Shown here: positions 3,646-30,193 of the stretch, piece by piece
Numbering within the stretch: the stretch's first letter is position 1
How the letters are laid out: each line of letters opens with the position of its first letter
From: Kineococcus rhizosphaerae
GTDB lineage: Bacteria; Actinomycetota; Actinomycetes; Actinomycetales; Kineococcaceae
Direction of reading: 5' to 3'
Assembly (NCBI RefSeq): GCF_003002055.1
Contig: NZ_PVZF01000012.1
Span: 1 to 64,000, forward strand
DNA length: 64,000 nt
The notes under the pieces: model-generated
Seen by the model: only the letters and a program-made list of their open reading frames with translations
Database searches by the model: none
Told to the model about the DNA's origin: nothing
Position numbers and translations under genes: made by a program

Positions 3646-3650
3646 GGGAA

Positions 3651-3655
3651 CCTCC
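3651..3655 (-). promoter_or_regulatory. Ribosome binding site deciding the SBP start
   Basis: GGAGG on the minus strand, 5 nt before GTG 3645. It fixes the start of the substrate-binding lipoprotein and excludes the in-frame GTG 33 nt upstream. The 100-nt gap to the phosphatase gene (3646-3745) shows no convincing promoter. Confidence 0.7.
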
Positions 3656-3745
3656 GGGGACGGGAGTGGAGCGTGCACAGTGTGGACCAGGTGGGCCCCG
3701 GACCGTGCATCCTGCGCGGTGTCACCCCCGTTCGTAACGCACTCG

Positions 3746-6903: not shown

Positions 6904-6924
6904 CAGGGCCGACTCAGGGCCGGG

Positions 6925-7527: not shown

Positions 7528-7587
7528 TGCTGGTCCTCGCTCACGCGGGTGGTGCTCCTCTGGAGAAGGGGGGAGATGCTCGGGGCG

Positions 7588-7593
7588 AGGATA
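7588..7593 (-). promoter_or_regulatory. Putative -10 box for the SGNH-kinase pair
   Basis: TATCCT on the minus strand would start transcription near 7580, leaving a leader of about 50 nt with the GAGGA ribosome site. No clear -35 is visible. Confidence 0.4.
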
Positions 7594-7655
7594 GTCGCTC
7601 GCACCGCGGGCCCACGTCGTCGTCCCGCCGGGCGGGTGGGCCGGGAACGACGAAA

Positions 7656-7681
7656 CCCCGCCACCCGCGAGGGTGACGGGG
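7656..7681 (-). terminator. Hairpin terminator downstream of kgd
   Basis: CCCCGCCACC pairs with GGGTGACGGGG across a GCGA loop with one mismatch, followed on the minus strand by GTTTCGTC. It sits 22 nt past the kgd stop and is the only strong structure in the 175-nt gap before the SGNH gene. Confidence 0.65.
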
Positions 7682-7702
7682 CTCGCCCGGTGGACGACTT
7701 CC

Positions 7703-10700
7703 TCAGCGGGTGAACGCCTCGTCCACGATCTGGCGCTGCTCGGCCTGGTGACGCTTGGCCGAGCCGGCGGCGGGGGAAGCGGACGCGGGGCGCGAGACGA
7801 GGCGCAGCTTGGCCGCCAGCGACGGGAACAGGCCCATCGCGACGTGCCACCAGCCGCCCTGGTTCGACGGCTCCTCCTGCACCCACACGACCTCGGCGCC
7901 CGGGTACTTCGACAGCTCGGCCAGGACCTGCTGCACGGGCAGCGGGGCGAGCTGCTCGAGGCGGACGACGGCCGTCGTCGTGTCCTTGCGCGCGGCCCGC
8001 TCGGCGGCGAGGTCCCAGTAGACCTTGCCCGAGCACAGCAGCACGCGGTCGACCTTCGCGGGGTCGAGACCGCCCTGGTCGCCGATGACCTCCTGGAAGG
8101 TCCCCGTCGTGAAGTCCTCCACGTCCGACTGCGCGGCCTTCAGGCGCAGCATCGACTTCGGGGTGAAGACGATGAGCGGGCGGCGCGGGCGGGCGTACGC
8201 CTGGCGGCGCAGCAGGTGGAAGTGGCTCGCGGGCGTCGAGGGCACCGCGACCGTCATGTTGTCCTCGGCGCACAGCTGCAGGAACCGCTCGATGCGGCCC
8301 GAGGAGTGGTCCGGTCCCTGGCCCTCGTAGCCGTGCGGCAGCAGCAGGACGACCGAGGAGTGCTGACCCCACTTCTGCTGGCCGGCGGCGATGAACTCGT
8401 CGATGACGGTCTGCGCCCCGTTGAAGAAGTCGCCGAACTGCGCCTCCCACAGCACCAGCGCGTCGGGCCGTTCCACGGAGTACCCGTACTCGAACCCCAT
8501 GGCCGCGTACTCGGACAGCAGGGAGTCGTAGATCCAGAACTTGGCCTGCTCGGCGCCCTCGCGGCCCAGGTACAGCAGCGGGGTCCACTCGTCGCCGGTG
8601 ACCCGGTCGGTCAGGACCGCGTGCCGCGACACGAACGTCCCGCGACGGGAGTCCTGGCCGGACAACCGGACCGGCACGCCCTCCATGAGCAGCGACCCGA
8701 AGGCCAGCAGCTCGCCCCAGCCCCAGTCGATGCCGCCCTCGGTCGACATCTGCTCGCGCTTGTCGAGCAGCTGCCGCAGCTTGGGGTGGACGGTGAAGCC
8801 CGCCGGCGGGTTCGCCTGGACCTGCCCGATGTGCTTGAGCACCGCGGCGTCGACGGCCGTGGAACGCGCCGAGCGGGGGGCCTGCTCGTCGGCCTCCTGC
8901 GCGGACGGCTTCTCCAGCCCGCCGCGGGAGTCGCCGTCGCCGGAACCACCTGCCTTGGAGCCCTTGGTCTCGGCGAAGGCGCGCTCGAGCTGGGCCGAGT
9001 AGTCGCGCAGCGCCTCCTCGGCCTCCTCCACGGAGATGTCCCCGCGGCCGATGAGGCCCTCGGTGTAGCTCTTGCGCACCGAGCGCTTCTTCTCGATGAG
9101 GTTGTACATGAGCGGCTGCGTCATCGACGGGTCGTCGCCCTCGTTGTGGCCGCGACGGCGGTAGCAGACCATGTCGATGACGACGTCCTTGTCGAACTCC
9201 TGACGGAACTCGAAGGCGAGCTGCGCCACGCGGACGCACGCCTCGGGGTCGTCGCCGTTCACGTGGAAGATCGGCGCCTGGATCATGCGGCCGACGTCGG
9301 TGCAGTAGAACGACGAGCGCGACGACGCCGGGGCCGTGGTGAACCCGACCTGGTTGTTGATGACGACGTGGACGGTGCCGCCCGTGCGGTACCCGCGCAG
9401 CTGCGACAGGTTCAGCGTCTCGGCCACCACGCCCTGGCCGGCGAAGGCCGCGTCGCCGTGGATGAGGACCGGCAGCACCGGGAACGAGGCGCCCCCGAGG
9501 TTGATGCGGTCCTGCTTGGCGCGCGCCACGCCCTCCAGCACGGGGTCGACGGCCTCGAGGTGGGAGGGGTTCGCGGCGACGTAGACCTTGGTCTGCTCGC
9601 CGTCCTCGCCCGTGAAGGTGCCCTCGGTGCCCAGGTGGTACTTCACGTCGCCCGAGCCCTGGACGGTGCGCGGGTCCTGCATGCCCTCGAACTCGCGGAA
9701 CACCTGCGAGTAGCTCTTGCCCGCGATGTTCGTCAGGACGTTCAGGCGCCCGCGGTGGGCCATGCCGAGGCAGACCTCGTCCATGCCCGCGCTCGCCGCG
9801 CGCGACAGCAGCCCGTCGAGCAGGGCGATGACGGACTCCCCGCCCTCGAGGCTGAACCGCTTCTGCCCCACGTACTTCGTCTGCAGGAACGTCTCGAACG
9901 CCTCGGCCGCGTTGAGCCGGCGCAGGATCCGCAGCTGCTCGGCCGCGGTCGGCTTGGCGTACGGGCGCTCGACGCGGTCCTGGATCCACTTGCGCTGCTC
10001 GGGTTCCTGGATGTGCATGTACTCGATGCCGACGGTGCGGCAGTACGAGTCGCGCAGGACGCCGAGGATGTCGCGCAGCTTCATGTGCGCCTTGCCGCCG
10101 AAACCCCCGGTCGGGAACTCGCGGTCGAGGTCCCACAGCGTCAGGCCGTGCGTCTCGATCTCGAGGTCGGGGTGCATCCGCTGCCGGTACTCCAGCGGGT
10201 CGGTGTCGGCCATGAGGTGCCCGCGCACGCGGAACGCGTGGATGAGCTCGACGAGGCGGGCCGTCTTGTTGAGCTGGTCGTCGTGGCTGATCGAGATGTC
10301 CGGCGTCCAGCGGATCGGCTGGTACGGGATGTGCAGCGCCTGGAAGACGCGGTCGTAGAACCCGTCCTCGCCCAGCAGCTTGCTGTGCACGATGCGCAGG
10401 AACTCACCGGACCCCGCGCCCTGGATGATGCGGTGGTCGTAGGTCGAGGTGAGCGTGATGACCTTGCTGACCGCCAGCCGGGTCAGCGTCTCCTCGCTGG
10501 CGCCCTGGTACTCCGCCGGGTACTCCATCGCGCCGACGCCGATGATCGCGCCCTGGCCCTTGACCAGGCGCGGGACCGAGTGGACGGTCCCGATCGTGCC
10601 GGGGTTGGTCAAGCTGATCGTCGTGCCGGCGAAGTCGTCGGCCGTGAGCTTGCCGCCGCGGGCCCGGCGCACGACGTCCTCGTAGGCGCTCCAGAACTCC

Positions 10701-11530
10701 GCGAAGTTCTTGGTCTCGCACTCCTTGACCGCCGGGACCATGAGCTGGCGGGTGCCGTCGGGCTTGGGCAGGTCGATGGCGATGCCCAGGTTCACGTGCG
10801 CCGGCTGCAGGACGGCGGGCTTGCCCTTGGCGTCGGTCGTGTACGCCGCGTTCATCGACGGCATCGCCGCCAGCGCCTCGACGAGCGCGAAGCCGATGAG
10901 GTGGGTGAAGGAGACCTTGCCGCCGCGGGCGCGCTTGAGGTGGTTGTTGATGACGATGCGGTTGTCGACCAGCAGCTTGGCCGGGACCGCGCGCACGCTC
11001 GTGGCCGTGGGGACCTCGAGGGACTCCTCCATGTTCGTCACCACGCGGGCGGCGGGACCGCGCAGGGGGGAGACGAGGTCCTGCGCCGCGGGGGCCGGCT
11101 GCGCGGGCGCCCCGGCAGCGGGCTTCTCGGCGGGCTTCTCGGCGGCCTTCTCCACGGGCTTCACGGGGGACTTCTCGGCGGGGGCGGCGGATCGCGCCGC
11201 CGGGGCCGGGGCCGGGGCCGGGGTCGGAGCGGGGGCCGGCGGGGCCGTGCGGGGCTTGGCGGTCGCCGGCGCCCCGGCGGGAGCCGCGCCGTTGGCGGAC
11301 CCGTTGGCGGACCCGTTGCCCGAGCCGTTGCTCGAACCGTTGCCGCCCGTGCTCTGGGTCGTCCCGGCCGGGCTGTCGGCCGGGGAGTAGTCCTCGAAGA
11401 AGTCCCACCACGCCTTGTCGACGGAATCCTTGTCGGTCTTGTACTGCTCGTACAGCTCGTCGACGAGCCACTCGTTCGGGCCGAAGGTGGCGGCGATCTT
11501 GTCCTCGTGGTGCGAGGGCTGCTGAGGCAC
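7703..11530 (-). CDS. kgd: Multifunctional 2-oxoglutarate decarboxylase/dehydrogenase (E1-E2 fusion)
   Basis: A 1275-residue fusion typical of actinobacteria. It has an N-terminal E1 segment ([15 protein letters not shown]), a long Gly/Ser/Asn then Ala/Pro/Lys linker (about residues 50-150), an E2 succinyltransferase-like domain ending in [16 protein letters not shown], and the thiamine-diphosphate E1 domain ([36 protein letters not shown]) with the transketolase C-terminal half. In the TCA cycle it decarboxylates 2-oxoglutarate and, with lipoamide dehydrogenase and an E2 partner, yields succinyl-CoA. GTG 11530 fits best: it has a purine-rich GAGGAAGAAGG upstream, and the longer GTG at 11584 lies within the putative -10. 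Monocistronic. Confidence 0.96.
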
Positions 11531-19283: not shown

Positions 19284-20320
19284 GCAACCAGGCCTCGCTG
19301 CTCCTGGCGGTGTTCCTGATCCTGGGCAACGCCTTCTTCGTCGGCGCCGAGTTCGCCGTGCTGTCGGCCCGGCGCAGCCAGATCGAGCCGCTGGCCGAGT
19401 CCAGCGCCCGGGCGCGCTCGGCGCTGACCGCCATGGAGCACGTCTCGCTCATGCTGGCGGCCTGCCAGCTGGGGGTGACCCTGTGCTCCCTGGGGCTGGG
19501 CGCCGTGGCCGAGCCGGCCATCGCGCACCTGCTGGAACCGCTGTTCCACGCCGTGCACCTGCCCGAGGTGCTGATCCACCCCGTCGCCCTCGTCATCGCG
19601 CTGTCGATCGTCACGTACCTGCACGTCGTCGTCGGCGAGATGATCCCCAAGAACCTCTCGATCGCCGGCCCCGACCGCGCGGTGCTGCTCCTGGCCCCGC
19701 CGCTGGTCGCGATCGGGCGGGTCATCGGGCCCGTCATCCGCGCCCTGAACGCCCTGACGAACGCCGCCCTGCGGGCGCTGGGCGTCGAGCCCAAGGACGA
19801 GGTCTCCAGCGCGTTCACCGTCGAGGAGGTGCAGTCGATCGTCGCCGAGTCCCGCCGGGAGGGCACGCTCGACGACTCCGGCGGGCTGGTGACGGGGGCG
19901 CTGGAGTTCTCCGACCGCACGGTCGGCGACATCGCCGTGCCGCTGGCCGAGCTGCGCACCCTGCCCGCCGGTTCGACCCCCGCCGACGTGGAGGCCCTCG
20001 TGGCCCGCACGGGGTTCAGCCGCTTCCCCGTCGTCGACGCCGCCGGCGACCTGGAGGGCTACCTGCACCTGAAGGACATCCTGTACGCGGACGACGACCG
20101 GTACGCCGAACCGGTGCCGGAGAAGCGGGTCCGGGCCCTGGGGACCCTCGGGGCGGGCGAGGAGGTCGAGGACGCCCTCGCCGCGATGCGCCGCACGGGC
20201 GCGCACCTGGCCCGCGTCGTCGACGCGGCCGGTGAGGTCACGGGCGTGGTGTTCCTCGAGGACGTCCTGGAGGAGCTCGTCGGCGAGGTCAGCGACGCCA
20301 TGCAGCGCGCCCGCGGCTGA
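19280..20320 (+). CDS. CNNM-family membrane protein, short paralogue lacking CorC domain
   Basis: A 346-residue paralogue of the preceding gene. It has a DUF21 domain (FFVGAEFAVLSARRSQ; VVGEMIPKNLSIA) and a CBS pair ending in GVVFLEDVLEELVGEVSDAM, then stops at once, so the C-terminal CorC_HlyC domain of its neighbour is absent. Paired long and short DUF21 proteins are a recurring arrangement in actinobacteria, consistent with a heteromeric membrane complex. GTG 19280 overlaps the upstream stop (GTGA), so translation is likely coupled and near-equimolar. Probable role: divalent cation (Mg) homeostasis, by family. Confidence 0.9.
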   Translation: MSNQASLLLAVFLILGNAFFVGAEFAVLSARRSQIEPLAESSARARSALTAMEHVSLMLAACQLGVTLCSLGLGAVAEPAIAHLLEPLFHAVHLPEVLIHPVALVIALSIVTYLHVVVGEMIPKNLSIAGPDRAVLLLAPPLVAIGRVIGPVIRALNALTNAALRALGVEPKDEVSSAFTVEEVQSIVAESRREGTLDDSGGLVTGALEFSDRTVGDIAVPLAELRTLPAGSTPADVEALVARTGFSRFPVVDAAGDLEGYLHLKDILYADDDRYAEPVPEKRVRALGTLGAGEEVEDALAAMRRTGAHLARVVDAAGEVTGVVFLEDVLEELVGEVSDAMQRARG

Positions 20321-20340
20321 CCCGCTCTGCAGTCAGTCGC

Positions 20341-20376
20341 GGGTCAGCCGCAGGGTCGGCCGCAGGGTCAGCCGCG
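20341..20376. repeat. 12-bp tandem repeat, three copies
   Basis: GGGTCAGCCGCA, GGGTCGGCCGCA and GGGTCAGCCGCG in tandem, with partial units on both sides, just beyond the stop of the PRC-barrel gene. Read on the minus strand in that gene's frame past its TGA, the array would encode Pro-Ala-Ala-Asp repeats. Confidence 0.75.
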
Positions 20377-20378
20377 GG

Positions 20379-20750
20379 TCAGCGCCGGGCCAGGTGGCGG
20401 CCGCTGGGCGTGTCGGCGGCCGAGTACTCCATGGCGTAGGCGGCGTAGATGCGCGGTTCGTCGTCGGGGCCGAGCTCCTCGTCGGTCCCGAACGACGGCG
20501 AGGCCTTGACGGTCTCCTTGGGGAAGGCCACCCGGATGTCGTGGCGGCCGACGGCGGCGCCGTCCAGGGGCACGAGCACGACCTTCTTGAACCCCACGAC
20601 GCCGGTCTCGACGGCCGCGAACAGCCACTCGTCGGTGGCGGCGTCGACGTAGACGGAGCTGAGGGTGCCGATCTTCGCGTCGCTGACGTCGAGGACGGCC
20701 GCGCCCTTCCACTGGTTCAGGTCCTGCACGAGGATCGTCATGGCGATCAC
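20379..20750 (-). CDS. PRC-barrel domain protein
   Basis: A 123-residue protein. The N-terminal two thirds look like a PRC barrel (MTILVQDLNQWKGAAVLDV, DAKIGTLSSVYVDAATDEWLF, FKKVVLVPLDGA), a small beta-barrel found in photosynthetic reaction-centre H subunits, RimM and many stress-associated bacterial proteins of unknown role. The C-terminus is charged. GTG 20750 has AAGG 9 nt upstream and is taken as the start; ATG 20741 is possible and would remove three residues. It is divergent from the Thr-rich membrane protein gene, and a CTGTG-N9-CACAG inverted repeat (20750-20768) lies between them. Function unknown. Confidence 0.72.
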   Translation of the reverse strand: MIAMTILVQDLNQWKGAAVLDVSDAKIGTLSSVYVDAATDEWLFAAVETGVVGFKKVVLVPLDGAAVGRHDIRVAFPKETVKASPSFGTDEELGPDDEPRIYAAYAMEYSAADTPSGRHLARR

Positions 20751-20825
20751 TGTGGCGCACCTTCACAGGACTCGCTCGCCGGGTGGCCGGAACCCCCGGA
20801 CCCGGGTGACACCATGGGACGCGGC

Positions 20826-21677
20826 ATGAGCGAGCAGACACCCCAGCGGACCACCCTGACCATCAACTGGCTGCAGATCGCGGGCGGAGCGGGCGCGGCC
20901 GTCACGTCGGCCGTGCTGCTGGCCGGGCTGAAGAGCTTCGGCGCGTACGGCACCCTCGTCGGCGCGGCCCTCGGCAGCGTCATCGCCTCCACGGCGGCGG
21001 CGATCTACGGCTTCACCCTGAACCGGAGCCGGGAGCACCTCGCCGAGGTCGCCCGTCGCGCCCGCGACCGGCGCACGGGTCCGGTGCCCCCGGCGCAGGA
21101 CGAGCACCCCGACCGCACCGAGCCGCCCGTCGTCGACGAGGCCGGTGCGCCCGGCCCCGGCCCGGCGCCGACCCCGGGACCGCCGCGGCGCAAGCGGTTC
21201 CGCGCCCGGCACGCCGTGCTCCTCGGCGTCGTCGCGTTCGTCCTGAGCGTGGGCGGGATCTTCGTCTTCGAGTCCGTCAGCGGCAAGAGCGTCGCGGCCG
21301 AGCGCCAGGGCGACACCGCGACCACGAGCAGCACCATCCTCGGCACCACGGTGACGTCGACCCCGTCGACGCCCACCCCCACCCCGACGGGCACCCCGAC
21401 GGACACCGCCACCGAGACCGCCACGAGCACGGCGACGGATTCCCCGACGGGTACGGCGACGGGCACCGCGACCGAGGACCCCACGAGCACGGCCACCGCC
21501 ACGGGCGAGCGCACGGGCACGGCGACGTCCTCGCCGGAGGCGACCGCCACCGCGACCGGCACCCCCACGGACCGGGCGACGAGCACCGCCACCGCGCAGC
21601 GGGACGAGGCCGCCGTCAGCGCCCCGACCGCGAGCGCGGCCGCGCTGGCCGGGGCGACGGCGACCGCCGCGCCCTGA
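20826..21677 (+). CDS. Membrane protein with Thr/Ala-rich mucin-like C-terminus
   Basis: A 283-residue protein. An N-terminal conserved segment (INWLQIAGGAGAAVTSAVLL and LVGAALGSVIASTAAAIYG) forms one long or two short membrane helices. A charged Pro-rich cytoplasmic stretch follows, then a second hydrophobic helix after a basic PPRRKRFRARHA patch (ARHAVLLGVVAFVLSVGGIF). The last 120 residues consist almost only of Thr, Ala, Ser, Pro and Gly, as in O-mannosylated actinobacterial surface stalks. By the positive-inside rule that tail would be outside. The ATG start (20826) lacks an obvious ribosome site. The N-terminal part looks like a widespread actinobacterial hypothetical protein; function unknown. 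Confidence 0.78.
   Translation: MSEQTPQRTTLTINWLQIAGGAGAAVTSAVLLAGLKSFGAYGTLVGAALGSVIASTAAAIYGFTLNRSREHLAEVARRARDRRTGPVPPAQDEHPDRTEPPVVDEAGAPGPGPAPTPGPPRRKRFRARHAVLLGVVAFVLSVGGIFVFESVSGKSVAAERQGDTATTSSTILGTTVTSTPSTPTPTPTGTPTDTATETATSTATDSPTGTATGTATEDPTSTATATGERTGTATSSPEATATATGTPTDRATSTATAQRDEAAVSAPTASAAALAGATATAAP
21346..21609 (+). repeat. Degenerate Thr-codon minisatellite inside the mucin-like gene
   Basis: Irregular reiterations of ACGGGCACG / GCGACCACG-like units encode the T-x-T-A tail of the surface protein. Units are 12-18 nt and imperfect, so slippage in multiples of three would change tail length without frameshift. Confidence 0.6.
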
Positions 21678-21702
21678 CGGCCCCCTCCCGCCGGAGGCGC
21701 AT

Positions 21703-21850: not shown

Positions 21851-22723
21851 GTGCACTCGTGGGTGGATCGACTGGCGGTGGAGCGGCTCACGGCCGTGGT
21901 TGACATCGGGGCGAACCCGATCGACGGTGACCCCCCGTACAAGGACATGCTCACCGCGGGCCTGTGCACGGTCACGGGATTCGAACCGCAGGCCGAGGCC
22001 CTCACCGCCCTGCTCGAGGCCGCGGGACCGAACGAGCGGTACCTGCCGCACGCCGTCGGCGACGGCGGCGAGCACGAGCTCAAGGTCACCTGGATGAACG
22101 GGATGACCAGCCTCTTCGAGCCGGACGTGCGGCGGCTGTCCGCGCTGAACGAGTTCGCGCGCTACGGGGAGGTCCTGCGCCGCGGCACCGTCGCCACGAA
22201 GCGCCTGGACGACCTCGACGACCTCGGGCCCCTGGACCTGCTGAAGATCGACGTCCAGGGCTCGGAGCTGACGATCTTCCAGAACGGGCGGCGGACCCTG
22301 GCCGGGGCCGTCGCCGTGCACACCGAGGTCTCCTTCGTCCCGCTGTACGAGGGCCAGCCGCTGTTCGGCGAGGTCGACGCCGAGCTGCGCGCCCAGGGGT
22401 TCCTGCCGCACACCTTCGCGGCGATCAAGAAGTGGCCCATCGCCCCGGGCGTGCTGGACGGGAACATCTTCGAGCACCACCAGCAGGTCATCGAGGCCGA
22501 CGTGGCCTACGTCAAGGACTTCGGGCGGCTGGAGGTGCTGGAGGCCGAGCAGGTCAAGCACCTGGCCCTGCTGGCCCACTTCGTCTACGGCTCCACCGAC
22601 CTCGTCGTGCGCTGCCTGGTGCAGCTGGTCTCCGACGGGGTCGTGGACGAGCAGGTCGTCGCCGACTACGGCGCGGCGATCGGCCGCTCGCTGACGACGA
22701 ACGGCGTGCGCAGCGACCGCTGA
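21851..22723 (+). CDS. FkbM-family methyltransferase
   Basis: A 290-residue SAM-dependent methyltransferase of the FkbM family. The SAM-binding strand reads AVVDIGANPIDGDPP, FEPQAEALTAL is the second acidic strand, and LDLLKIDVQGSELTIFQNG carries the family-defining KIDVQGxE motif. These enzymes usually O-methylate sugars or polyketides; beside glycosyltransferase genes, methylation of a glycan is the natural inference. The start GTG 21851 is chosen for its ribosome site AAGGGGAG 5 nt upstream; a longer open frame encodes only a basic tail. Its 3' end overlaps the convergent glycosyltransferase gene by 58 nt. Confidence 0.88.
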   Translation: MHSWVDRLAVERLTAVVDIGANPIDGDPPYKDMLTAGLCTVTGFEPQAEALTALLEAAGPNERYLPHAVGDGGEHELKVTWMNGMTSLFEPDVRRLSALNEFARYGEVLRRGTVATKRLDDLDDLGPLDLLKIDVQGSELTIFQNGRRTLAGAVAVHTEVSFVPLYEGQPLFGEVDAELRAQGFLPHTFAAIKKWPIAPGVLDGNIFEHHQQVIEADVAYVKDFGRLEVLEAEQVKHLALLAHFVYGSTDLVVRCLVQLVSDGVVDEQVVADYGAAIGRSLTTNGVRSDR

Positions 22724-23985
22724 AGGCGGACGTGGCGTCGGTGGTCGTAGCGGCCCCAGGCCCGCTGCAGGTCGACCCCGTCCAGGGGGTCGGCCCGCAC
22801 GGCGGGGTCGGCCGGCACGGCCACGTCGGCGGCGCCGGCGGACCGGGCCACGTCCCGGGTCCGCCGCACGAGCAGGTCGTCGCCGACCCGCACCGGCGCG
22901 ACGTCGGTCAGCTCGGCGAGCGTGGCCCCGGTCAGGACCACGGGCCGGTCCAGGTCGACGCGGAAGCGGCAGCGGCCCAGCACGTCCGCCGGCGGGGTCC
23001 CGCGGTGCACGCGCGGGTCCGCGAGCTCGTCGCAGGCGTCCCCCGAGCGCAGCCAGACCCCGCCGTCGGTGCCCGCCAGCAGGCTCGCGACGCAGGCCAC
23101 GACGTCGGCCACCTCGGCCCCGGTGTCGTCGAGGGTCACGACGACGTCGGGGAAGGCCCAGACCAGCCCGGCGCCGCGGGTCGCGGGACCGGGGACGAAC
23201 CGGGCCAGCGCCAGCCCCTCGGCGTTGCGGGAGCGGCGGGCGTCCGCGTCGTCGGTGCGGCCGGCGAAGTCGGGCCCGTCGTGCCAGGCGACCGCGTCGG
23301 GGGCGTGGGCGAAGTCCGCCCCCCGCAGCCAGCACCGGTGGGCGAACTCCCAGTCCTCCCCGCCGTACTGCGTGAACGACTCCTCGAAGCCGCCCACCGC
23401 GTCGAACAGCTCGCGGGTGACGCTGAGGACCGCGGAGATGACGAAGCGGTACGCGTCGTCACCGGCGTCGCGCAGGTCGCCGGTGCGCTCGTACGCCTCG
23501 CGCAGCCAGGCCGGGTCCTCGAAGAGCTCCGGGGCGGGCCCCTGCCCGCGCCACCACGCCGCGAGGGCGCCGGGGGTGGCCGCGGACAGGTCGGCGTGGC
23601 GACGGCGGCCGACGACGAGGTCGGCTCCCGCGCGCACCGCCCGCAGCACGGCCGCGACGTACCCCGGTTCGGGGACGGTGTCGGCGTCCAGGAAGCACAG
23701 GACCTCGCCGGTGGCGTGCGCGGCCCCGAGGTTGCGGGCGGCGGCTGCGCGGAACCCGGCGTCCTCCTGGGCGACCACGCGCACCGGGAACGGCCGCGGC
23801 CCCGGGGCCGGCGGGGTGCGCGAGCCGTCGTCGGCCACGACGACGTCCAGCAGGTGCAGGGGGTGGTCCTGCAGCGCGAGCGCGCCCAGCACGAGCTCGA
23901 GGTCGTGCGGGGCCTCGTAGTGGGGGACCACGACCGACACCCTCACCGCTGCCTCCGGGGTCGCCGCCACGTCCGCCCCGCTCAC
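22666..23985 (-). CDS. Glycosyltransferase family 2 with galactosyltransferase-type C motif
   Basis: A 439-residue GT-A enzyme. The N-terminal fold (RVSVVVPHYEAPHDLELVLG, VVADDGS) leads to the metal-binding DxD in CFLDADTVPEPG; a later FTQYGGEDWEFAHRCW is the GGEDW acceptor-side motif of the glyco_transf_7C type. A further 130 residues of unclear role follow. No membrane helix is seen, so it probably acts at the cytoplasmic face. GTG 23985 overlaps the stop of the upstream GT4 gene (GTGA). It is last in the minus-strand trio wcbI-like, GT4, GT2. Its tail lies antisense to the end of the FkbM gene. Sugar specificity cannot be read. Confidence 0.88.
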   Translation of the reverse strand: MSGADVAATPEAAVRVSVVVPHYEAPHDLELVLGALALQDHPLHLLDVVVADDGSRTPPAPGPRPFPVRVVAQEDAGFRAAAARNLGAAHATGEVLCFLDADTVPEPGYVAAVLRAVRAGADLVVGRRRHADLSAATPGALAAWWRGQGPAPELFEDPAWLREAYERTGDLRDAGDDAYRFVISAVLSVTRELFDAVGGFEESFTQYGGEDWEFAHRCWLRGADFAHAPDAVAWHDGPDFAGRTDDADARRSRNAEGLALARFVPGPATRGAGLVWAFPDVVVTLDDTGAEVADVVACVASLLAGTDGGVWLRSGDACDELADPRVHRGTPPADVLGRCRFRVDLDRPVVLTGATLAELTDVAPVRVGDDLLVRRTRDVARSAGAADVAVPADPAVRADPLDGVDLQRAWGRYDHRRHVRLQRSLRTPFVVSERPIAAP

Positions 23986-25052
23986 GGGGTGGGCACCCGG
24001 GCGCCGTCGCGCACGTCGATCAGCACGTGCCGGCCGGCGGCCCGCAGGACCGCGCGCAGCCGGGCGGTGGTCTGCGCGACCGTCGGGCCCGGCGGCCCGG
24101 CGGCCGCCCCGGCCCAGGTCGAGGCCGGGTCCGCCCAGGCCCGCGCCAGGGCCGTGCGCAAGTCGTCGTAGACCGTCACGCACCCCGGGGAGCGTTCCAG
24201 CAGTTCCTCGGCGTAGTCGCTGCGCGGGACCAGGGGACGGCGGCCGGCGCCGATCCAGGTGCTGATGGAGCCGGACGCCGACAGGTGCTCGTGCGGGGCG
24301 ACCGGCAGCACGGCCGAGCGCAGCCGCGCCGGCAGCTCGGCCGACGGCACGAAACCCGTGATCCGGCAGGAGCGCCCCGCCGCCGCCGCGCGGATGACGA
24401 GCTCGTCGACGAGGTCCTCGTGACCGTCCGAGGGGCGGCCCAGCGCGAGCAGGCCCACCCCGGCGGGGAGCGCGTCGAGGGCCTCCACGACCTGCAGGTG
24501 CCCCTTGCCGGGGTACAGGTACCCGAGCACGGCCACCGCGGTCGGCGTCGTGCCGGGGGCGGCGGCGGGCGAGGGGGCCACGTGCGGCACCGGCAGCGGG
24601 ACGACGGTGCACGGCCGCTCGACGCCGCAGGCGGCCAGGAGACGTTCCTCGTGGCGGCTGGCGACGACCACGTGGGCCGCGACCCGCGCCATGCGCCCGT
24701 AGGCGGCGGCGCGCCGGGGGTGGTTGACGGCCCCGTCGCTGGCCTGGGGCAGGTCGTGCAGCGTGAGCACGAGGGGCCGCTGCCGGGCCAGGCCCTCGAC
24801 GAGCGCGGCGGCGTCCTCGGGGCTCGGGCCCAGCAGCCGGTCGGTCACGTGCAGCGAGACGACCCCGGCCGGGACGTCGCGCAGGGCGGCGGTGAGGTCG
24901 GTGAGGTCGGGCGGGCCCTCGCGGCGGACCAGGTGCACCGGTCCGCGGCCGTCGGTCCGCAGCACGTCCCACTGGGCCAGCGCCTCGGCGGTGACGCCGT
25001 GGGTGGCGGGGCCGAGCACCAGGCAGACGACGGCCGCCTCGGGGACCCTCAC
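23982..25052 (-). CDS. Glycosyltransferase family 4 (GT-B)
   Basis: A 356-residue GT-B glycosyltransferase. The N-domain contains LVLTLHDLPQAS and AAHVVVASRHEERLL, typical of family 4 acceptor domains; the C-domain starts at VAVLGYLYPGKGHLQVVEAL and continues to HEHLSASGSISTWIGAGRRP, near the usual donor-binding loop. The classical E-x7-E is not obvious. The GTG start overlaps the stop of the wcbI-like gene and its stop overlaps the GT2 start, so all three are co-translated. Role: sugar transfer in assembly of a surface glycan, by context. Confidence 0.85.
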   Translation of the reverse strand: MRVPEAAVVCLVLGPATHGVTAEALAQWDVLRTDGRGPVHLVRREGPPDLTDLTAALRDVPAGVVSLHVTDRLLGPSPEDAAALVEGLARQRPLVLTLHDLPQASDGAVNHPRRAAAYGRMARVAAHVVVASRHEERLLAACGVERPCTVVPLPVPHVAPSPAAAPGTTPTAVAVLGYLYPGKGHLQVVEALDALPAGVGLLALGRPSDGHEDLVDELVIRAAAAGRSCRITGFVPSAELPARLRSAVLPVAPHEHLSASGSISTWIGAGRRPLVPRSDYAEELLERSPGCVTVYDDLRTALARAWADPASTWAGAAAGPPGPTVAQTTARLRAVLRAAGRHVLIDVRDGARVPTP

Positions 25053-25969
25053 GCGGCCAGCGCCTCGTACGCCGCGGCGTGCCGCACCAGCCCGGCCTCG
25101 GCGACCCCTGGGTGCTCGCCGTACCAGCGCAGGTGCTCGGCGCGCACGACGTCCTGCGGCACGCGCTCGCCGTGCACGAGCCAGTCCTGCGCGCCGGGCC
25201 CGCTGGTGGAACCGGCGGCGGGGGCCAGCCCCAGGGCGTCCAGCACCTGCGGGGCCACGGGGGTGTGGATGCTGTCCAGCAGCGTCCGGCCCGGGTCGGG
25301 GACGTCGGCCTCGACGCCCAGCGCGCCCAGGACCCGCCCGGCCAGACCCCGCAGGACGTCGTTGCCCGGGTGGTTGACCGTGTGGGTGGCCGCCGCCCCG
25401 GCGGCCAGGAGCAGGTCGGTGACGGGCAGCGACCCGTGCGCCTCGTGCCGGCGCGCCAGCTCCCCGACGGACAGCTCCCGCACGGCCCGGACGGCCGCGG
25501 GGGCCGGGACCTCCGGCAGCGGCGGTCGTCCCGCGGCCTGCGCCAGCACGCGCAGGTCGTGGTACGGCACGACGGGCGGTTCCCCCGCGGCGGGGGAGCG
25601 GACGATGACCTGGAAGGGGTGCAGCGCGGCCCAGCGGACGACGGGCACCACCACGAGCCGCGGACGGCGCGCGCCCGCGGCGACGACCTCGGCGGTCCCC
25701 ACGGGCAGGTCCCGGTAGCCGTCCCGGACCGGCTGCGAGACGACCACGTCGACCTGCTCGAGCAGGGCGTGCAGGTGCGGCAGGTCGTCGGCGGTCAGCT
25801 CGTGCACCGGCGGCACCCGGACCGTGCGCACGGGGGAGGCGGGGAAGTCGAGCAGCACGCGCACGGACTCGGCCTGGCAGTTGCCGTGGACCAGCACCAG
25901 CGGCCGGTCGTCCCGGGTGACCGGCGCGAGGCCGTAGAAGTGCGCGTAGTGTCGTCGGCGTCCGGTCAC
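25049..25969 (-). CDS. WcbI-type polysaccharide biosynthesis protein
   Basis: A 306-residue protein with the N-terminal signature LVLVHGNCQAESVRVLLDF of the WcbI family, a CoA-binding fold implicated in acetylation of capsular polysaccharide in Burkholderia. Further family-like features are VVSQPVRDGYR and the NHPGNDVLRGLAGRVL segment with conserved His/Asn. It probably O-acetylates the glycan made by the neighbouring transferases. GTG 25969 is chosen because TACGCT lies 6 nt upstream, indicating a leaderless transcript; the open frame extending beyond is antisense to the divergent GT4 gene. First gene of a three-gene operon. Confidence 0.82.
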   Translation of the reverse strand: MTGRRRHYAHFYGLAPVTRDDRPLVLVHGNCQAESVRVLLDFPASPVRTVRVPPVHELTADDLPHLHALLEQVDVVVSQPVRDGYRDLPVGTAEVVAAGARRPRLVVVPVVRWAALHPFQVIVRSPAAGEPPVVPYHDLRVLAQAAGRPPLPEVPAPAAVRAVRELSVGELARRHEAHGSLPVTDLLLAAGAAATHTVNHPGNDVLRGLAGRVLGALGVEADVPDPGRTLLDSIHTPVAPQVLDALGLAPAAGSTSGPGAQDWLVHGERVPQDVVRAEHLRWYGEHPGVAEAGLVRHAAAYEALAA

Positions 25970-25975
25970 AGCCGC

Positions 25976-25981
25976 AGCGTA
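25976..25981 (-). promoter_or_regulatory. Putative -10, leaderless start of the wcbI-GT4-GT2 operon
   Basis: TACGCT on the minus strand 6 nt before GTG 25969. The 138-nt region 25970-26107 separates this operon from the divergent GT4 gene and must hold both promoters; no clear plus-strand box is visible. Confidence 0.5.
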
Positions 25982-26107
25982 GGGGCTGTTCGGAGCCCGT
26001 ACGGACGGGTGGAGTGCGCGGTGGCGGCCACTTCGTGCTTTCCTCAGCCGGTGCACCCGCCTCTCCTGTCCCGCACCCCGTCGCCCGTCCACCCCGACAG
26101 GTCCCTC

Positions 26108-27268
26108 GTGCGGTCGACGCGGACGGCGGGCACGAGCACCCGGGGGCGGTCCCTGACCGTCGCGGTCCTGGGACCGAGCAGGTACCCCGTCGCCGAGCCC
26201 TACGCGGGTGGGCTGGAGTCCTTCGTCGGCGGCCTGGTCCGCGGGCTGCGCGAGCGCGGCCACCGGGTGCTGCTGTTCGCGGCCCAGGGCTCGGACGACG
26301 CCCAGCCGGAGGTCCTGGACGGCGGCGGGTGGGAACCGGACGAGCTGTCGCGCCGCGACCCGTCGATGCCCGCCGCGGCCTTCATGGCCGAGCACCACGC
26401 CCACCTGCGCGTGATGGACGCGCTGCGCACGCGCTACGCCGACGAGGTCGACCTGGTCCACAACAACTCCCTGCACTACCTGCCGCTGTCGTTGTCGGCG
26501 ACGCTGCCCTTCCCCACGGTCACGACGTTCCACACGCCCCCGACCCCGTGGCTGACGTCGGCCCTGGCGGCCGGCGGCGGCTCCGCCCGGTTCACCAGCG
26601 TCAGCCGGTTCACCGGCCAGCAGTGGGCCCCGTGGGCCCCCCGCGCGCACGTCGTGCACAACGGCGTCGACCCGGGCCGCTGGACGCCGGGACCGGGCGG
26701 GACGAACCTGCTCTGGTTCGGCCGGCTGGTCCCCGAGAAGGGCCCGCACCTGGCCATCGCCGCCGCGGCGCGGGCGGGCCGGCACCTGGACCTGGTGGGG
26801 CCGGCGCTGGACGAGGAGTACTTCGCGCGGCGCATCGCCCCCCACCTGGGCCGGGGCGTGACGTGGCACGGCCACCTGGGGGGCTCCCCGCTGGCCCGGG
26901 CCGTCGGCCGCGCGGGCGCGGTCCTGGTGACCCCGGTGTGGGACGAGCCGTTCGGCCTCGTCGCGGCCGAGGCCGCGATGTGCGGCACGCCGGTGGTCGC
27001 CCTCGACCGCGGGGGACTGCGCGAGGTCGTCCGCCCCGGCTCGGGCAGCGCCCTGGGCGAGGTCGTCGCCGCCGGGGACGTCGACGCCCTGGCCGCCGCC
27101 GTCGGCCCGGCGCTCGCGATGGACCGGGCCCGCGTCCGGGCGGCGGCGGAGGCGCGGCTGTCCGCGCCGGCCATGATCGCCGGCTACGAGGGCGTCTACC
27201 GGGCGGTGCTGTCCGAGGCCTCCGCCGAGGCCCCCGTCGAGGACCACGTGCGGGTCGCGGCGTCGTAG
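26108..27268 (+). CDS. Glycosyltransferase family 4 (GT-B)
   Basis: A 386-residue classical GT4 enzyme. The N-domain Gly loop reads PYAGGLESFVGGLVRGLRER; SVSRFTGQQW and HVVHNGVDPGRW precede the C-domain, which opens with LLWFGRLVPEKGPHLAIAAA and carries the donor-site PVWDEPFGLVAAEAAMCGTP, containing the E-x7-E motif. It transfers an activated sugar with retention. GTG 26108 (AGG 6 nt upstream) is preferred; GTG 26051 is an alternative adding 19 residues without recognisable function. It is the only plus-strand gene between two minus-strand operons and overlaps the end of the next one by 73 nt. Confidence 0.88.
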   Translation: MRSTRTAGTSTRGRSLTVAVLGPSRYPVAEPYAGGLESFVGGLVRGLRERGHRVLLFAAQGSDDAQPEVLDGGGWEPDELSRRDPSMPAAAFMAEHHAHLRVMDALRTRYADEVDLVHNNSLHYLPLSLSATLPFPTVTTFHTPPTPWLTSALAAGGGSARFTSVSRFTGQQWAPWAPRAHVVHNGVDPGRWTPGPGGTNLLWFGRLVPEKGPHLAIAAAARAGRHLDLVGPALDEEYFARRIAPHLGRGVTWHGHLGGSPLARAVGRAGAVLVTPVWDEPFGLVAAEAAMCGTPVVALDRGGLREVVRPGSGSALGEVVAAGDVDALAAAVGPALAMDRARVRAAAEARLSAPAMIAGYEGVYRAVLSEASAEAPVEDHVRVAAS

Positions 27269-28104
27269 CGGGCCAGACCGGCCGCCGCGAAGGCGTCGAG
27301 CCACCCCGTCATCGGGAACCACCCCCACCGGGCGTGGAAGACGCCGGCGTTGCGCACGACGGCCTCGACGTGCTGGACGGGCGGGTTGGTCGTGGGGTGG
27401 TGCTGGTGGAAGGCCTCGGCGCCCCCCACCCAGAACAGGCTGCCGCCCAGGGAGCGCACGGTGGCGGCGACGTCGGTGTCCTCGCCGCCGTACCCGCGGT
27501 ACTCCTCGCAGAACCCGCCGAAGCGCTCCCAGTCCCGGGCGCTCACCGCGAACGACAGGGACCAGAACAGCCACCACTGCGACTCGTCCGCCGCCAGCAC
27601 CTCGTGCTCGGCGGGGGCGGGCCGGGCGGGGTGCGGCGAGGCCGCCCGCGCGAGCCCGGCGAGGTCGGCGGCGCGCTCGACCCGGACGCCGGGGGGCAGG
27701 TAGGTCACCGCCCCGCACAGCAGGGACGGTCCCGCCACCGAGCGCACCGGCGCCGACGCGGCCGCGTCGCGGTAGGTCCGCAGCAGCCCCGGGGAGGGGA
27801 CGCAGTCGACGTCGAGGAAGACGAGCAGCTCGGCCCCGGCCGCGAGGGCGGTCGCCGCGGCGACGTTGCGCGCCCGCGACAGCGGCAGCTCGCCGTCCGG
27901 TGGGACGGGGACGTCGACGACGACGGTGCGGGTCCGGTCCCCGGCCCGCGCCTCGACGAGGGGACGGACCCCGGGGTCGCCCATGGCCACGACGACGTGC
28001 AGGTCCGGGACGGTGTCGGAGTGCTGCAGACCCACCAGCTGACCCACCAGGTGCTCGTGGCGGCCGGCGACGATCGTCAGCACGGCCACCTGCGGGGACC
28101 TCAC
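27196..28104 (-). CDS. Glycosyltransferase family 2 with galactosyltransferase-type C motif
   Basis: A 302-residue GT-A enzyme. The N-domain has an AVLTIVAGRHEHLVGQL start and a DxD in LLVFLDVDCVPSPG; the acceptor-side motif is YRGYGGEDTDVAATVRSLG, the same GGED type as in the 22666-23985 enzyme, so the two may act on related linkages. HQHHPTTNPP near the C-terminus resembles the metal-binding His region of this subfamily. GTG 28104 overlaps the upstream stop (GTGA). It is the last gene of the minus-strand trio GT4, GT28-like, GT2. The tail is antisense to the convergent GT4 gene. Confidence 0.88.
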   Translation of the reverse strand: MRSPQVAVLTIVAGRHEHLVGQLVGLQHSDTVPDLHVVVAMGDPGVRPLVEARAGDRTRTVVVDVPVPPDGELPLSRARNVAAATALAAGAELLVFLDVDCVPSPGLLRTYRDAAASAPVRSVAGPSLLCGAVTYLPPGVRVERAADLAGLARAASPHPARPAPAEHEVLAADESQWWLFWSLSFAVSARDWERFGGFCEEYRGYGGEDTDVAATVRSLGGSLFWVGGAEAFHQHHPTTNPPVQHVEAVVRNAGVFHARWGWFPMTGWLDAFAAAGLARYDAATRTWSSTGASAEASDSTAR

Positions 28105-29120
28105 GCGAGCACCCCCTGCGCCGCGGCGGTCTCGTCGAGGAACCGGGCCGCGCGCTGGGCCCCGTCCCCGGGCGCCCACCGCCGCCAGGGTCCGGCCCCG
28201 ACGGCGCGGGCGCGCGCGAGCAGCCCGGGCCAGCGGTCGGCCGCCGGCCAGCCGTCGAGGGCGACCAGGCCCTCCGCGCGCAGCAGGTCCACGCGACGGC
28301 GCTGCTCGGCGAAGGGCCGGTCCTGGGCGACCACGACGGCCGCTCGGCGGGCGGCGGCGACCTCCGCGACGGCGTTGTGGCCGCCGTGCACGACGACGAC
28401 CTCGGCCTCCAGCAGCGCGTCCCAGACGTCCTGCTCGTCCTGCGGGCTGGTCAGGCGGGACCCGGGCACGCGGAACCGCCAGGTCCACCCGGGCGTCGCC
28501 TCCCGGGCCGCCAGCAGCTCGTCGTCGCTCACGTCGCGCCCGCCGCTGCCCCACAGGACCAGGACCGTGCCCGGCCGGGTGGCGCCGGTGGGGGCGGGTC
28601 GGCCGTCGAAGCGGGAGAAGGCCCCCACGTGGACGACGGGGGTCCTGCCGGACGGGGCGGGGGTCTGCGGCGCGGGCTGCGGCGCGGGCTGCGGCCAGGG
28701 GGCCAGCAGCGCGGTCGCGAGGTCGCGGCCCAGCCGGTGGGGCGCGTCGTCGCGGTCGCCGAGCATGGCGGCGACGACGACGGGCGCACCGCACAACCGG
28801 GCCAGGACCGTGACCTCGACGGAGACGTCCGTGACGACCAGCTGCGGGCGCGCCTGCGCGATCCACCCGGCGACGACGGCGTGGCGCCGCCCCAGCCCCC
28901 GGTGGTGCAGGGGCACCCAGTGCAGCGCGCCGCCGGCCGTGGCCGAGGCGCGGTCGACGTCGCCGTCGTCGTCGCGGTCGAGCTGCACCCACCCGCCCGT
29001 GAAACCGGCCGGGCGCGGCGCCGAGCTCAGCGCCGTCACCGGCGTGCGCAGGTGCCGGGTCACCGCGACGAGGCGCTGCAGGTGCCCGGCGCCGTGGTGG
29101 TGGACGTACCAGCCGATCAC
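28101..29120 (-). CDS. MurG/GT28-like glycosyltransferase
   Basis: A 339-residue GT-B protein. The N-terminus IGWYVHHHGAGHLQRLVAV resembles the Gly-His loop of MurG-type (GT28) enzymes; the C-domain contains VLVLWGSGGRD and VVVVHGGHNAVAEVAAARR, the donor-binding HGGHN motif of GT28/GT1. A Pro/Ala/Gln-rich linker (QPAPQPAPQTPAPSG) separates the domains. The donor is likely a UDP-sugar by family. It starts at GTG 29120, overlapping the upstream stop. It is not the cell-wall MurG by context, because no mur or fts genes are nearby. Confidence 0.82.
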   Translation of the reverse strand: MIGWYVHHHGAGHLQRLVAVTRHLRTPVTALSSAPRPAGFTGGWVQLDRDDDGDVDRASATAGGALHWVPLHHRGLGRRHAVVAGWIAQARPQLVVTDVSVEVTVLARLCGAPVVVAAMLGDRDDAPHRLGRDLATALLAPWPQPAPQPAPQTPAPSGRTPVVHVGAFSRFDGRPAPTGATRPGTVLVLWGSGGRDVSDDELLAAREATPGWTWRFRVPGSRLTSPQDEQDVWDALLEAEVVVVHGGHNAVAEVAAARRAAVVVAQDRPFAEQRRRVDLLRAEGLVALDGWPAADRWPGLLARARAVGAGPWRRWAPGDGAQRAARFLDETAAAQGVLA

Positions 29121-30193
29121 GCGTCCACCCGCGGCCCGGCCGCCCCGTGCGGGGCGACCTGCGAGACCACCCGCAGGTAGAGGTCCCGGTGCGCCTGCGC
29201 CACCCGTCGGCGCTGGGCGGCCCGGCTCCCGGCGTCGGCGGCCGTGCCCGGGCCGGCGGCCGCGGCGCGGTCCAGGGCCGCCGCCAGGGCCTGCGGGTCG
29301 AGCAGGTCGACCTGCTCGAGCCGCTGCTGCTGGTGCAGGTAGCCGACGTGCCCGGCCACGACGGGCACGCCCAGGTCGTGGCACAGCTCCAGCCAGCCCG
29401 AGTGCGTGCCGTGCCCGTAGGCCAGCAGCGAGACGTCCAGCTCCCGCAGGTAGCCGAACAGCTCCTCGTCGTCGAAGCGGTCGTGCACGCGCAGGTCGAC
29501 GCGCCCGTCGGCGTGGGCGTCCCGCAGCCAGGCCGACAACGCGGCGTCGTGGCGGGGGAAGGACGGCTCGAGCGCCTCGCCGTGCACGTCCACGCGCAGC
29601 ACCGTGCCGGGCAGGCGCCGCACGGCCTCGGCGGCGGACTCCAGCACGGGGCCGGCGACCAGGTTGGCGCGCAGGCTCTTCAGGTGCACGCCGACGACCC
29701 GCGGACCGCTGCGCGGCGGGCGGGGCGTCATCGCCTCGAAGGGCGCCACGTGCGGGTGCGGCACGACCTGCGGGCGACGCGACCAGCGGCGCTCGACCTC
29801 GTCGGCCGCCCCCGGGGTCAGGGTGACGACCTCGTCGGCGGCGGGGACCAGCACGTCCAGCAGCCGGTCGTGGTCGTGCTGCGTCGTCAGGTGCGGGTTC
29901 TGCAGGTCGTGGACGGTCAGGACCAGGCCCCGGCCCCGCCGGCGCAGCGCCGTCGTCAGCTCGCGCAGCTGCGCGGGCGTGCGGCCCTCGAACCCGAAGT
30001 GCAGGTGCAGCACGTCGAAGAGGGCGGCGTTCTCCTCGACCCACCCGGCGTCCAGGGCGGGGGAGGGGGCCCAGCGCGACGGGTCGGGCCGGGCGAGGCG
30101 GACGACCTCGACGCCGTCCACCCCCTCGTGGGTGAGGTGGTCCACGTAGCCGTGGTCGCCCGGGACGTGGAGCACTGCGACGGAAGCCGACAA
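29117..30193 (-). CDS. Glycosyltransferase family 4-like
   Basis: A 358-residue GT-B glycosyltransferase-like protein. HLHFGFEGRTPAQLREL, LVLTVHDLQNPH and EVVTLTPGAADEVERRW form the N-domain; GVHLKSLRANLVAGPVLES opens the C-domain and SLLAYGHGTHSGWLELCHDL lies near the donor loop. I place the start at TTG 30193, because AGGAG stands 7 nt upstream, rather than at GTG 30292, whose extra 33 residues are basic low complexity without a ribosome site. First gene of the second glycan operon; its promoter is not obvious. Confidence 0.8.
   Translation of the reverse strand: MSASVAVLHVPGDHGYVDHLTHEGVDGVEVVRLARPDPSRWAPSPALDAGWVEENAALFDVLHLHFGFEGRTPAQLRELTTALRRRGRGLVLTVHDLQNPHLTTQHDHDRLLDVLVPAADEVVTLTPGAADEVERRWSRRPQVVPHPHVAPFEAMTPRPPRSGPRVVGVHLKSLRANLVAGPVLESAAEAVRRLPGTVLRVDVHGEALEPSFPRHDAALSAWLRDAHADGRVDLRVHDRFDDEELFGYLRELDVSLLAYGHGTHSGWLELCHDLGVPVVAGHVGYLHQQQRLEQVDLLDPQALAAALDRAAAAGPGTAADAGSRAAQRRRVAQAHRDLYLRVVSQVAPHGAAGPRVDA

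Follow-up and report, generated by a model that had tools for sequence, protein, structure and literature searches.

Gene content and family assignments

What might the eight glycan enzymes encoded side by side in the soil bacterium Kineococcus rhizosphaerae build, and do their genes belong together? We analyzed a 64,000-nucleotide stretch of the genome (the window) and found all eight reading frames that a sequence-only reading had placed at 21851–30193. Gene A (21851–22723, forward strand) encodes an FkbM-family methyltransferase (PF05050, 2e-19), the sole PF05050 match in this genome. It is followed on the reverse strand by B (22666–23985), a GGED-type GT2 enzyme (GT2a; PF00535, 9e-17), C (23982–25052), a divergent GT4-like enzyme (GT4a), and D (25049–25969), a WcbI-type putative acyltransferase (PF18588, 7e-61). 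A divergent intergenic stretch (25970–26158) separates D from E (about 26159–27268, forward strand), a canonical GT4 enzyme with an uncertain start (GT4b; PF00534, 1e-19; PF13439, 1e-16). The remaining genes are on the reverse strand: F (27196–28104), a second GGED-type GT2 enzyme related to galactosyltransferases (GT2b; PF02709, a weak 1e-5), G (28101–29120), a GT28/GT1-like enzyme that served as our core marker, and H (29117–30193), a divergent GT4-like enzyme (GT4c). For A, D, E and H we picked the start by eye from relatives; 4-base stop/start overlaps couple D-C-B and H-G-F.

The sequence-only reading had considered the domains clear from motifs, which Pfam bears out for A, B, D and E and weakly for F. 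The statement was too strong for C, which fell under the Pfam cut-off (4e-4), and for G and H, which matched no family in the Pfam scan. We settled H as GT4-like because its confident model (pLDDT 91.7) has a GT-B fold with GT4 enzymes as the top structural matches, and C as GT4-like because it is homologous to H (hhalign 98%, E 2e-13). G was settled as GT28/GT1-like because its weaker model (pLDDT 77.9) folds like YjiC, CalG and MurG, which are GT1 and MurG-type enzymes; its profile matches EspG2 and MurG. Comparison of E with H gave no clear homology. B and F are homologous to each other, and the C-B pair is related to the H-F pair. The B profile is closest to chondroitin synthase (E 2e-45), and its closest structures suggest a HexNAc-type transferase; that of F is likewise closest to chondroitin synthase (8e-14) and also finds beta-1,4-galactosyltransferases. 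The GGED motif reported in both GT2 enzymes is conserved, as YGGED in 22/22 aligned rows of B and as GGED in 22/26 (GAED in 4/26) of F. D scored 205.9 bits against a PF18588 cut-off of 29.2, covering profile positions 2–204 of 205 as a full-length match, and the CoA-site residues Cys14 and His201 of WcbI, placed through the 4bqn alignment, are invariant in 21 aligned rows.

As the sequence-only reading had also stated, Pfam found no flippase, polymerase, initiating transferase or nucleotide-sugar gene among the 20 long frames of 16.9–36.2 kb, nor did these frames include an exporter for a Wzx/Wzy- or ABC-type surface polysaccharide. The FecCD permeases in this interval are of a different kind from polysaccharide exporters. 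The proposal of an assembly or decoration module that draws its precursors from elsewhere is supported.

Distribution and layering of the cassette

G was present in 39/296 Actinomycetes genomes, C in 18/296, every one within the 39 with G, and D in 14/296, every one within the 18 with C. We kept 121 distinct G loci of 127, and in these G-F adjoin in 118, E-G in 102, H-E in 77, C-B in 47 and D-C in 29. C and B are fused into a single open frame in eight loci, and GF, HG and HF in one each. Because F follows G in 118/121 distinct loci, the gene set is beyond chance. Earlier counts that included a few duplicate genomes (119 loci; 75 promoter regions) gave the same odds as the recount with 121 loci and 74 regions; the GT28 tree omits L024, L026, L031 and L092.

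The cassette is layered: a core of E, G, F and usually H, in the order H-E-G-F, a nested add-on of C-B and then D, and A as a local extra, recovered in 8/92 loci, all of them from Kineococcus, G018 or NP160. The core recurs in many other actinobacteria, but the eight genes do not form a single unit. Scattering in relatives, which had been named as evidence against a system, occurs in part: D adjoins the core in only 7/14 genomes and lies apart from G in the other seven (G043, G017, G133, G197, G285, G228 and G340, some of them drafts), and C lies apart from G in 6/18 genomes of the class sample (some drafts), yet co-occurrence is strict. The core also occurs in some unrelated bacteria, as the E, F and G profiles match genes of Alphaproteobacteria, including plasmid genes; we found no WcbI on plasmids.

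Block insertion in Kineococcus

The genes that flank the cassette, encoding a Thr-rich protein and NAD kinase, adjoin each other in six other Kineococcus genomes (G001, G005, G006, G007, G008 and G010), and a block with approximate edges at 21678 and 30324 is missing between them. The DNA alignment with G008 covers 20001–21595 and then resumes from 30325. Because the flanking genes are directly adjacent in these six genomes, the block is an insertion, acquired as a unit in the K. rhizosphaerae chromosome. Five other Kineococcus genomes carry the cassette at four other sites, and the same six of the 11 Kineococcus genomes have both D and true G. The search behind this distinction matched 39/59 genomes, 24 of which had weak matches only (best 2.4e-12 to 8.6e-4) that we read as generic glycosyltransferases, leaving true matches in 15/59. 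No transposase was found among the 20 long frames scanned (16.9–36.2 kb). We discarded candidate mobile-element ends, since the repeats found were short and of low identity, and neither terminal repeats nor a target duplication stood out convincingly.

The empty site also bears on the proposal that the neighbouring gene's product, a Thr-rich membrane protein, is the cassette's glycosylation target. The adjacency, which is confined to K. rhizosphaerae, and the Thr-rich tail speak for this target, but the Thr-rich gene is present in all 11 Kineococcus genomes, five of which have no cassette, and in genomes with the cassette missing or at another site it still neighbours NAD kinase. The gene and the cassette are unlinked in four genomes in which both were mapped, and a search of the other cassette loci (L015–L106) at 1e-20 found no homologue of the protein. 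We therefore rejected the Thr-rich protein as a target, which its distribution and the empty site contradict and which we regard as very improbable.

Stress genes and promoters near the core

We compared 20-kb stretches around G (38 core loci, class sample) with 40 control stretches, chosen by position and unmatched. A SigB/F/G factor was found near G in 10/38 against 0/40 controls, a Zn-alcohol dehydrogenase in 16/38 against 2/40, and catalase in 9/38 against 0/40. After removal of five loci that overlap the profile sources, the counts against the same controls were 7/33 (p 0.003), 14/33 (p 0.0001) and 6/33 (p 0.007), respectively. SDR genes (7/38 against 6/40) and Dps (1 against 0) were not enriched, and no stress genes flank the cassette in the K. 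rhizosphaerae window.

The motif GGGTA lies upstream of H-E-G-F operons in 35/74 regions compared to 127/646 other upstream regions (p 5e-7), and GTTT-N13-18-GGGTA, a SigB-type consensus, in 6/74 compared to 16/646 (p 0.02). Part of the GGGTA signal reflects base composition, because GGGTA is likewise more frequent when these regions are read on the opposite strand (21/74 against 107/646). These figures replace a first count on 182 regions, duplicates included, in which the loose pattern gave 45 hits (reverse strand 22, shuffles 9.8) and the strict pattern 10 (3 and 0.2, respectively). With the SigB-type consensus, no SigB-like promoter was found before the window's operons or in the D/E intergenic stretch; a loose hit upstream of D was discarded, as it falls inside gene E.

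A parallel comes from the EcfG stress regulon of Sphingomonas melonis, which, in the available part of its description, includes a run of glycosyltransferase genes (#3505–3509), catalase and a Zn-alcohol dehydrogenase (PMC6599016). The annotation order of this run fits the core genes on a S. taxi plasmid.

The neighbourhood also bears on a possible surface-polysaccharide role, in which the cassette would decorate the polymer or provide its repeat unit while another locus, for instance the EPS-like one on contig C9, encodes the initiating transferase, flippase and polymerase. The C9 locus, judged by eye, contains a distant paralogue of C, the chondroitin synthase matches of B and F agree with a polysaccharide role, and WcbI itself comes from a capsule locus (PMC4104973). 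Core relatives in Sulfitobacter and S. taxi lie near surface-polysaccharide genes, which favours this explanation and counts against the stress-linked one below. On the other side, the identified flanking families common to at least four loci, a subset of the families, are stress, regulatory and module genes, and we consider a surface-polysaccharide role rather unlikely. In Sulfitobacter, the neighbouring genes are a flippase and TviB beyond an IS21 element; in S. taxi, the neighbour is a pyruvyl-transferase gene.

A second gene set

Some genomes have, next to the core, a second set (I-J-K) that encodes a flavoprotein, a GT2 enzyme, a PIG-L deacetylase and a NodS-like methyltransferase. Within J, the methyltransferase part sits next to the deacetylase part and finds NodS (E 1e-23). 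I-J-K lies beside the core or D in nine loci (L023, L057, L064, L072, L073, L079, L139, L142 and L143). We read four Sphingomonadales plasmid loci, and three had I-J-K beside the core, each of these with catalase adjoining. In the class sample the set is beside the core in only 4/38 loci against 0/40 controls (p 0.05), and in 2/33 without the overlaps. J was present in 25/39 core-bearing compared to 27/257 other genomes when the match covered the methyltransferase part, and in 25/39 compared to 50/257 by any match to 1e-30; within Kineococcus, it occurs in 5/6 cassette-bearing and 3/5 cassette-free genomes. K. rhizosphaerae has its own I-J-K outside the window, at about 106.4–109.4 kb of contig C6, in an island that also contains two ANTAR-type genes and genes for a SigB/F-type factor and a Zn-alcohol dehydrogenase. 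A PIG-L gene in a Pseudomonas LPS core locus was rejected as the same set, as its neighbours differ in the part of PMC8005017 available.

Proposed function

We propose, with a probability of about one half, that the cassette is a travelling glycan-assembly pathway, probably linked to stress, in which soluble enzymes build an oligosaccharide that WcbI acylates and FkbM methylates. The core (E, G and F, with H in most actinobacteria) would consist of soluble, cytoplasmic transferases that use ordinary nucleotide sugars to assemble a short chain, presumably on a small acceptor, soluble or lipid. C and B may together extend or branch this chain, D would then transfer an acyl group (probably acetyl) from CoA, and A would add a methyl group in Kineococcus. 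A link of the product to stress survival is probable and may extend to Kineococcus. Elsewhere, the joining of the core to the second set suggests a de-N-acetylated, perhaps N-methylated, hexosamine. The separation of D from G in half of the D-bearing genomes counts against this proposal.

Alternatively, the cassette could make a glycosylated small molecule whose aglycone is made elsewhere. The predicted fold of G, resembling natural-product glycosyltransferases such as CalG and YjiC, would suit a specialised metabolite, as would the patchy distribution and block movement; however, no recurring aglycone-type biosynthetic gene was found among the window frames scanned, and five or six consecutive transferases would better fit a sugar chain. 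We regard a specialised metabolite as improbable.

Extending the stress-linked assembly pathway, we tentatively suggest, at less than even odds, that bacteria of different phyla share an undescribed stress metabolite pathway, of which this cassette would be the actinobacterial version. Here soluble transferases would work with a deacetylase, a flavoprotein and a NodS-like methyltransferase to produce a glycolipid or oligosaccharide of modified hexosamine that shields cells from drought or oxidative stress; travelling add-on modules would supply the acyl and methyl decorations, which differ by lineage. The recurrent place beside general-stress genes offers a concrete prediction of the core's purpose. 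The strict nesting from core to GT4a to WcbI proposes an assembly order open to testing one enzyme at a time, and it offers WcbI, which alone had no acetyltransferase activity in vitro in the accessible part of its description (PMC4104973), a candidate acceptor in the C-B product. The core is present in 39/296 sampled Actinomycetes genomes and has relatives on alphaproteobacterial plasmids, yet our literature search found neither an assigned core product nor a described pathway matching the set, in line with the initial suggestion of an undescribed system.

Comparison with known systems

The transferase domain of K4CP-type chondroitin synthase (2z86, 2z87) is found by the profiles of both GT2 enzymes; unlike that synthase, B and F are separate single-domain enzymes paired with GT4-like partners. 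The modelled fold of H resembles those of the methylmannose polysaccharide mannosyltransferase (7qsg; E 1e-12, the best match, at 17% identity), GlgM, BshA and MshA, with identities of about 13–19% and TM-scores of 0.4–0.6. We take these four to be cytosolic oligosaccharide or small-glycoside enzymes. Nod factor tailoring, of which NodB and NodC are part, resembles the second set in that J carries a NodS-like methyltransferase with a deacetylase part, and differs in that the deacetylase of J is of the PIG-L type and J is on contig C6. D shares with WcbI (4bqn, 4bqo) its family and the residues Cys14 and His201, which contact CoA or its acetyl group in the available part of the structural description. 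The similarity to 4bqn itself is distant (E 0.0014 by single sequence, 2e-14 by profile), and D lies instead in a glycosyltransferase cassette without capsule export genes. Likened to the cassette by annotation, the run in the alphaproteobacterial host S. melonis, so far as the available part of its description goes, likewise brings glycosyltransferase genes together with catalase and a Zn-alcohol dehydrogenase.

Gene content and layout of the cassette

The eight open frames that a sequence-only reading had claimed at 21851-30193 are all real. They encode an FkbM methyltransferase (A, + strand), the glycosyltransferases GT2a (B, - strand) and GT4a (C, - strand), a WcbI-type protein (D, - strand), GT4b (E, + strand), GT2b (F, - strand), a GT28-like enzyme (G, - strand) and GT4c (H, - strand). 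Four-base overlaps at each junction within D-C-B and within H-G-F suggest that these are two coupled operons. E diverges from D and converges on F, as A does on B. Pfam matches backed A, B, D and E, and F weakly; C, G and H were not clear by Pfam. The model of H was a confident GT-B fold (pLDDT 91.7) closest to GT4 enzymes, and that of G was moderate (pLDDT 77.9), with GT1 and MurG-type enzymes as its nearest folds. Homology links C with H, and B with F. Chondroitin synthase was nearest for both B and F, with polypeptide GalNAc-transferases also near B and beta-1,4-galactosyltransferases also near F. The CoA-site Cys and His of D are invariant.

Insertion in Kineococcus and possible exchange between families

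D was present in six of the 11 Kineococcus genomes, the window's among them, and a true G in the same six. We compared the cassette site with six genomes in which it is empty, four with the cassette elsewhere and two without (G001, G005, G006, G007, G008 and G010; G002, G003, G004 and G009 were left out). In each, a Thr-rich gene adjoins the NAD kinase gene and the backbone order CNNM, CNNM, PRC, Thr-rich, NAD kinase, ABC, FecCD, FecCD, helicase is kept; further out, the guaB-like and hydrolase genes on the left were not found in the G001 stretch, and one gene on the right had no match in G010. Against G008, the backbone alignment runs up to 21595 and resumes from 30325. The adjacency of the flanking genes in these six genomes and this alignment break show that the cassette is an insertion in Kineococcus rhizosphaerae. 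Its neighbors differ in the five other Kineococcus genomes; G005 and G006 have a common site, and those in G001, G007 and G009 are each different. The Thr-rich gene (20814-21677) encodes a membrane protein whose tail is a long Thr/Ser/Pro stretch, and it occurs in all 11 Kineococcus genomes, adjoining NAD kinase in the six examined.

The GT28 tree contains a supported set of 11 rows (100/98) made up of the window, three other Kineococcus, four Blastococcus, G018 (which belongs to the same order as the window's genome), NP160 and one MAG. Since this set mixes taxa and excludes two Kineococcus rows, the tree suggests that the cassette may have been exchanged between families. When D-bearing rows and rows holding C-B alone were compared on the tree, four changes were needed, three of them forced; the test took in those two kinds of row and left out rows with neither. 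All eight genes of the cassette are present in a record labelled Streptomyces sp. NP160, whose close grouping with G018 has 100/100 support; the Streptomyces label may be wrong. In a Jiella pelagia plasmid G is split into two matches, and in one Blastococcus locus (L033) F and C are each split in two, reflecting decay or sequencing errors.

A core with layered additions

Scanning named genomes with the GT28 alignment yielded 403 relatives, and the 80 best were retained. Among 121 distinct loci with G, F followed G in 118, G followed E in 102, E followed H in 77, B followed C in 47 and C followed D in 29; C and B lie in one open frame in eight loci, and GF, HG and HF in one locus each. Within loci of 20 kb at most, which miss more distant genes, H-E-G-F stands without C, B and D in Streptomyces (all rows except NP160), Terrabacter, Nocardioides, two of three Rhodococcus rows and two of the three rows from mycobacteria (H is missing from the other). 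C-B but not D accompanies the core in Klenkia and Modestobacter, and D is present as well in Kineococcus, most Blastococcus, Serinicoccus, two of three Pseudonocardia and others. Among 296 Actinomycetes genomes, G was found in 39 (cut-off 1e-30), C in 18 and D in 14 (both 1e-15, so that the D count covers only this WcbI subfamily), and nesting was strict, with the D set wholly inside the C set and the C set wholly inside the G set. In this sample, which includes some drafts, D lies beside G in seven of 14 genomes and apart in seven, and C lies apart from G in six of 18. We conclude that this is a real, conserved and travelling glycan cassette.

Association with stress genes

We compared 38 loci around G from the class sample with 40 stretches picked by position (37 from the same genomes and three from Kineococcus). 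Genes for SigB/F/G factors (10/38 versus 0/40), Zn-alcohol dehydrogenase (16/38 versus 2/40), catalase (9/38 versus 0/40), SRPBCC (6/38 versus 0/40), ANTAR (8/38 versus 1/40), response regulators (7/38 versus 1/40) and FAD oxidoreductases (6/38 versus 1/40) were more frequent around G; SDR (7/38 versus 6/40) and Dps (1/38 versus 0/40) showed no difference. With five loci overlapping the profile sources removed, the counts were 7/33 for SigB/F/G factors, 14/33 for Zn-alcohol dehydrogenase and 6/33 for catalase. Upstream of H-E-G-F operons, GGGTA occurred in 35/74 regions versus 127/646 others, and was raised on the reverse strand too (21/74 versus 107/646); the full SigB-like pattern occurred in 6/74 versus 16/646 (p 0.02) and was absent before the window's own operons. 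In Rhodococcus opacus (L099), H-E-G-F is immediately preceded by a trehalose-6-phosphate synthase gene (6336-7778).

A second partner set

Several loci carry three more families next to the core or D: I, a flavoprotein of acyl-CoA dehydrogenase fold whose profile matches include DszC and a nitrososynthase; J, a PIG-L deacetylase fused to, or beside, a methyltransferase that best matches 4isc and NodS; and K, a GT2. Three Sphingomonadales plasmids have the order E, K-like GT2, G, I, PIG-L, methyltransferase, F, with catalase adjoining E; a fourth, from S. taxi, has neither I nor J. In the window's genome, I-J-K lies on another contig in a stress-type island (L137, G000:C6:98000-117900), at L137 positions 8375-11399. 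The island also holds a SigB/F-type factor gene at L137 positions 2989-3816, a pair of ANTAR-type genes and a Zn-alcohol dehydrogenase gene, just upstream of which, at 5825, is a GTTT-N-GGGTA match. In Acinetobacter, I-J-K occurs alone, near catalase and trehalose genes. Coupling to the core is loose: I-J-K adjoins it in only four of 38 class-sample core loci. By hand count, J with the methyltransferase part covered was in 25/39 core-bearing versus 27/257 other genomes (50/257 for any match). In Kineococcus, J was in 5/6 cassette-bearing and 3/5 cassette-free genomes.

Proposed function and comparison with known systems

As no export partner was recognized near the cassette, the simplest reading has the glycan built from common nucleotide sugars on the cytoplasmic side. 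E, G and F (and H) would make a core chain, which C-B would extend; D, with its invariant CoA-site residues, would acylate what C-B add, since it was never found without C in the sample, and A would methylate. A distant paralogue of C (3.5e-30) lies at G000:C9:139333-140277 (L138, 9229-10413) in a locus resembling exopolysaccharide genes by eye, a possible source of export functions. On a Sulfitobacter pontiacus plasmid (L217), a HAD hydrolase gene is followed by G, F and E, and an IS21 lies between this run and polysaccharide genes, a flippase gene among them, possibly a surface-polysaccharide use of the core.

We found no description of the set in literature on WcbI, PIG-L with ACAD and GT, stress regulons, galactosyltransferase-related protein or Kineococcus GT, a search that fell mostly outside subscription papers, so a description elsewhere is possible; passages of PMC4104973, PMC6599016 and PMC8005017 likewise described no such set. 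According to PMC4104973, WcbI alone was inactive in vitro and its authors proposed a partner protein; the C-B pair is a candidate for that partner here. A stress role for the cassette is plausible. The Sphingomonas melonis EcfG regulon, as given in PMC6599016, includes a GT gene run, a catalase and a Zn-alcohol dehydrogenase, with #3505 and #2499 confirmed by reporter, and the order of that run, compared by annotation order only, fits the S. taxi plasmid genes matching G, F and E.
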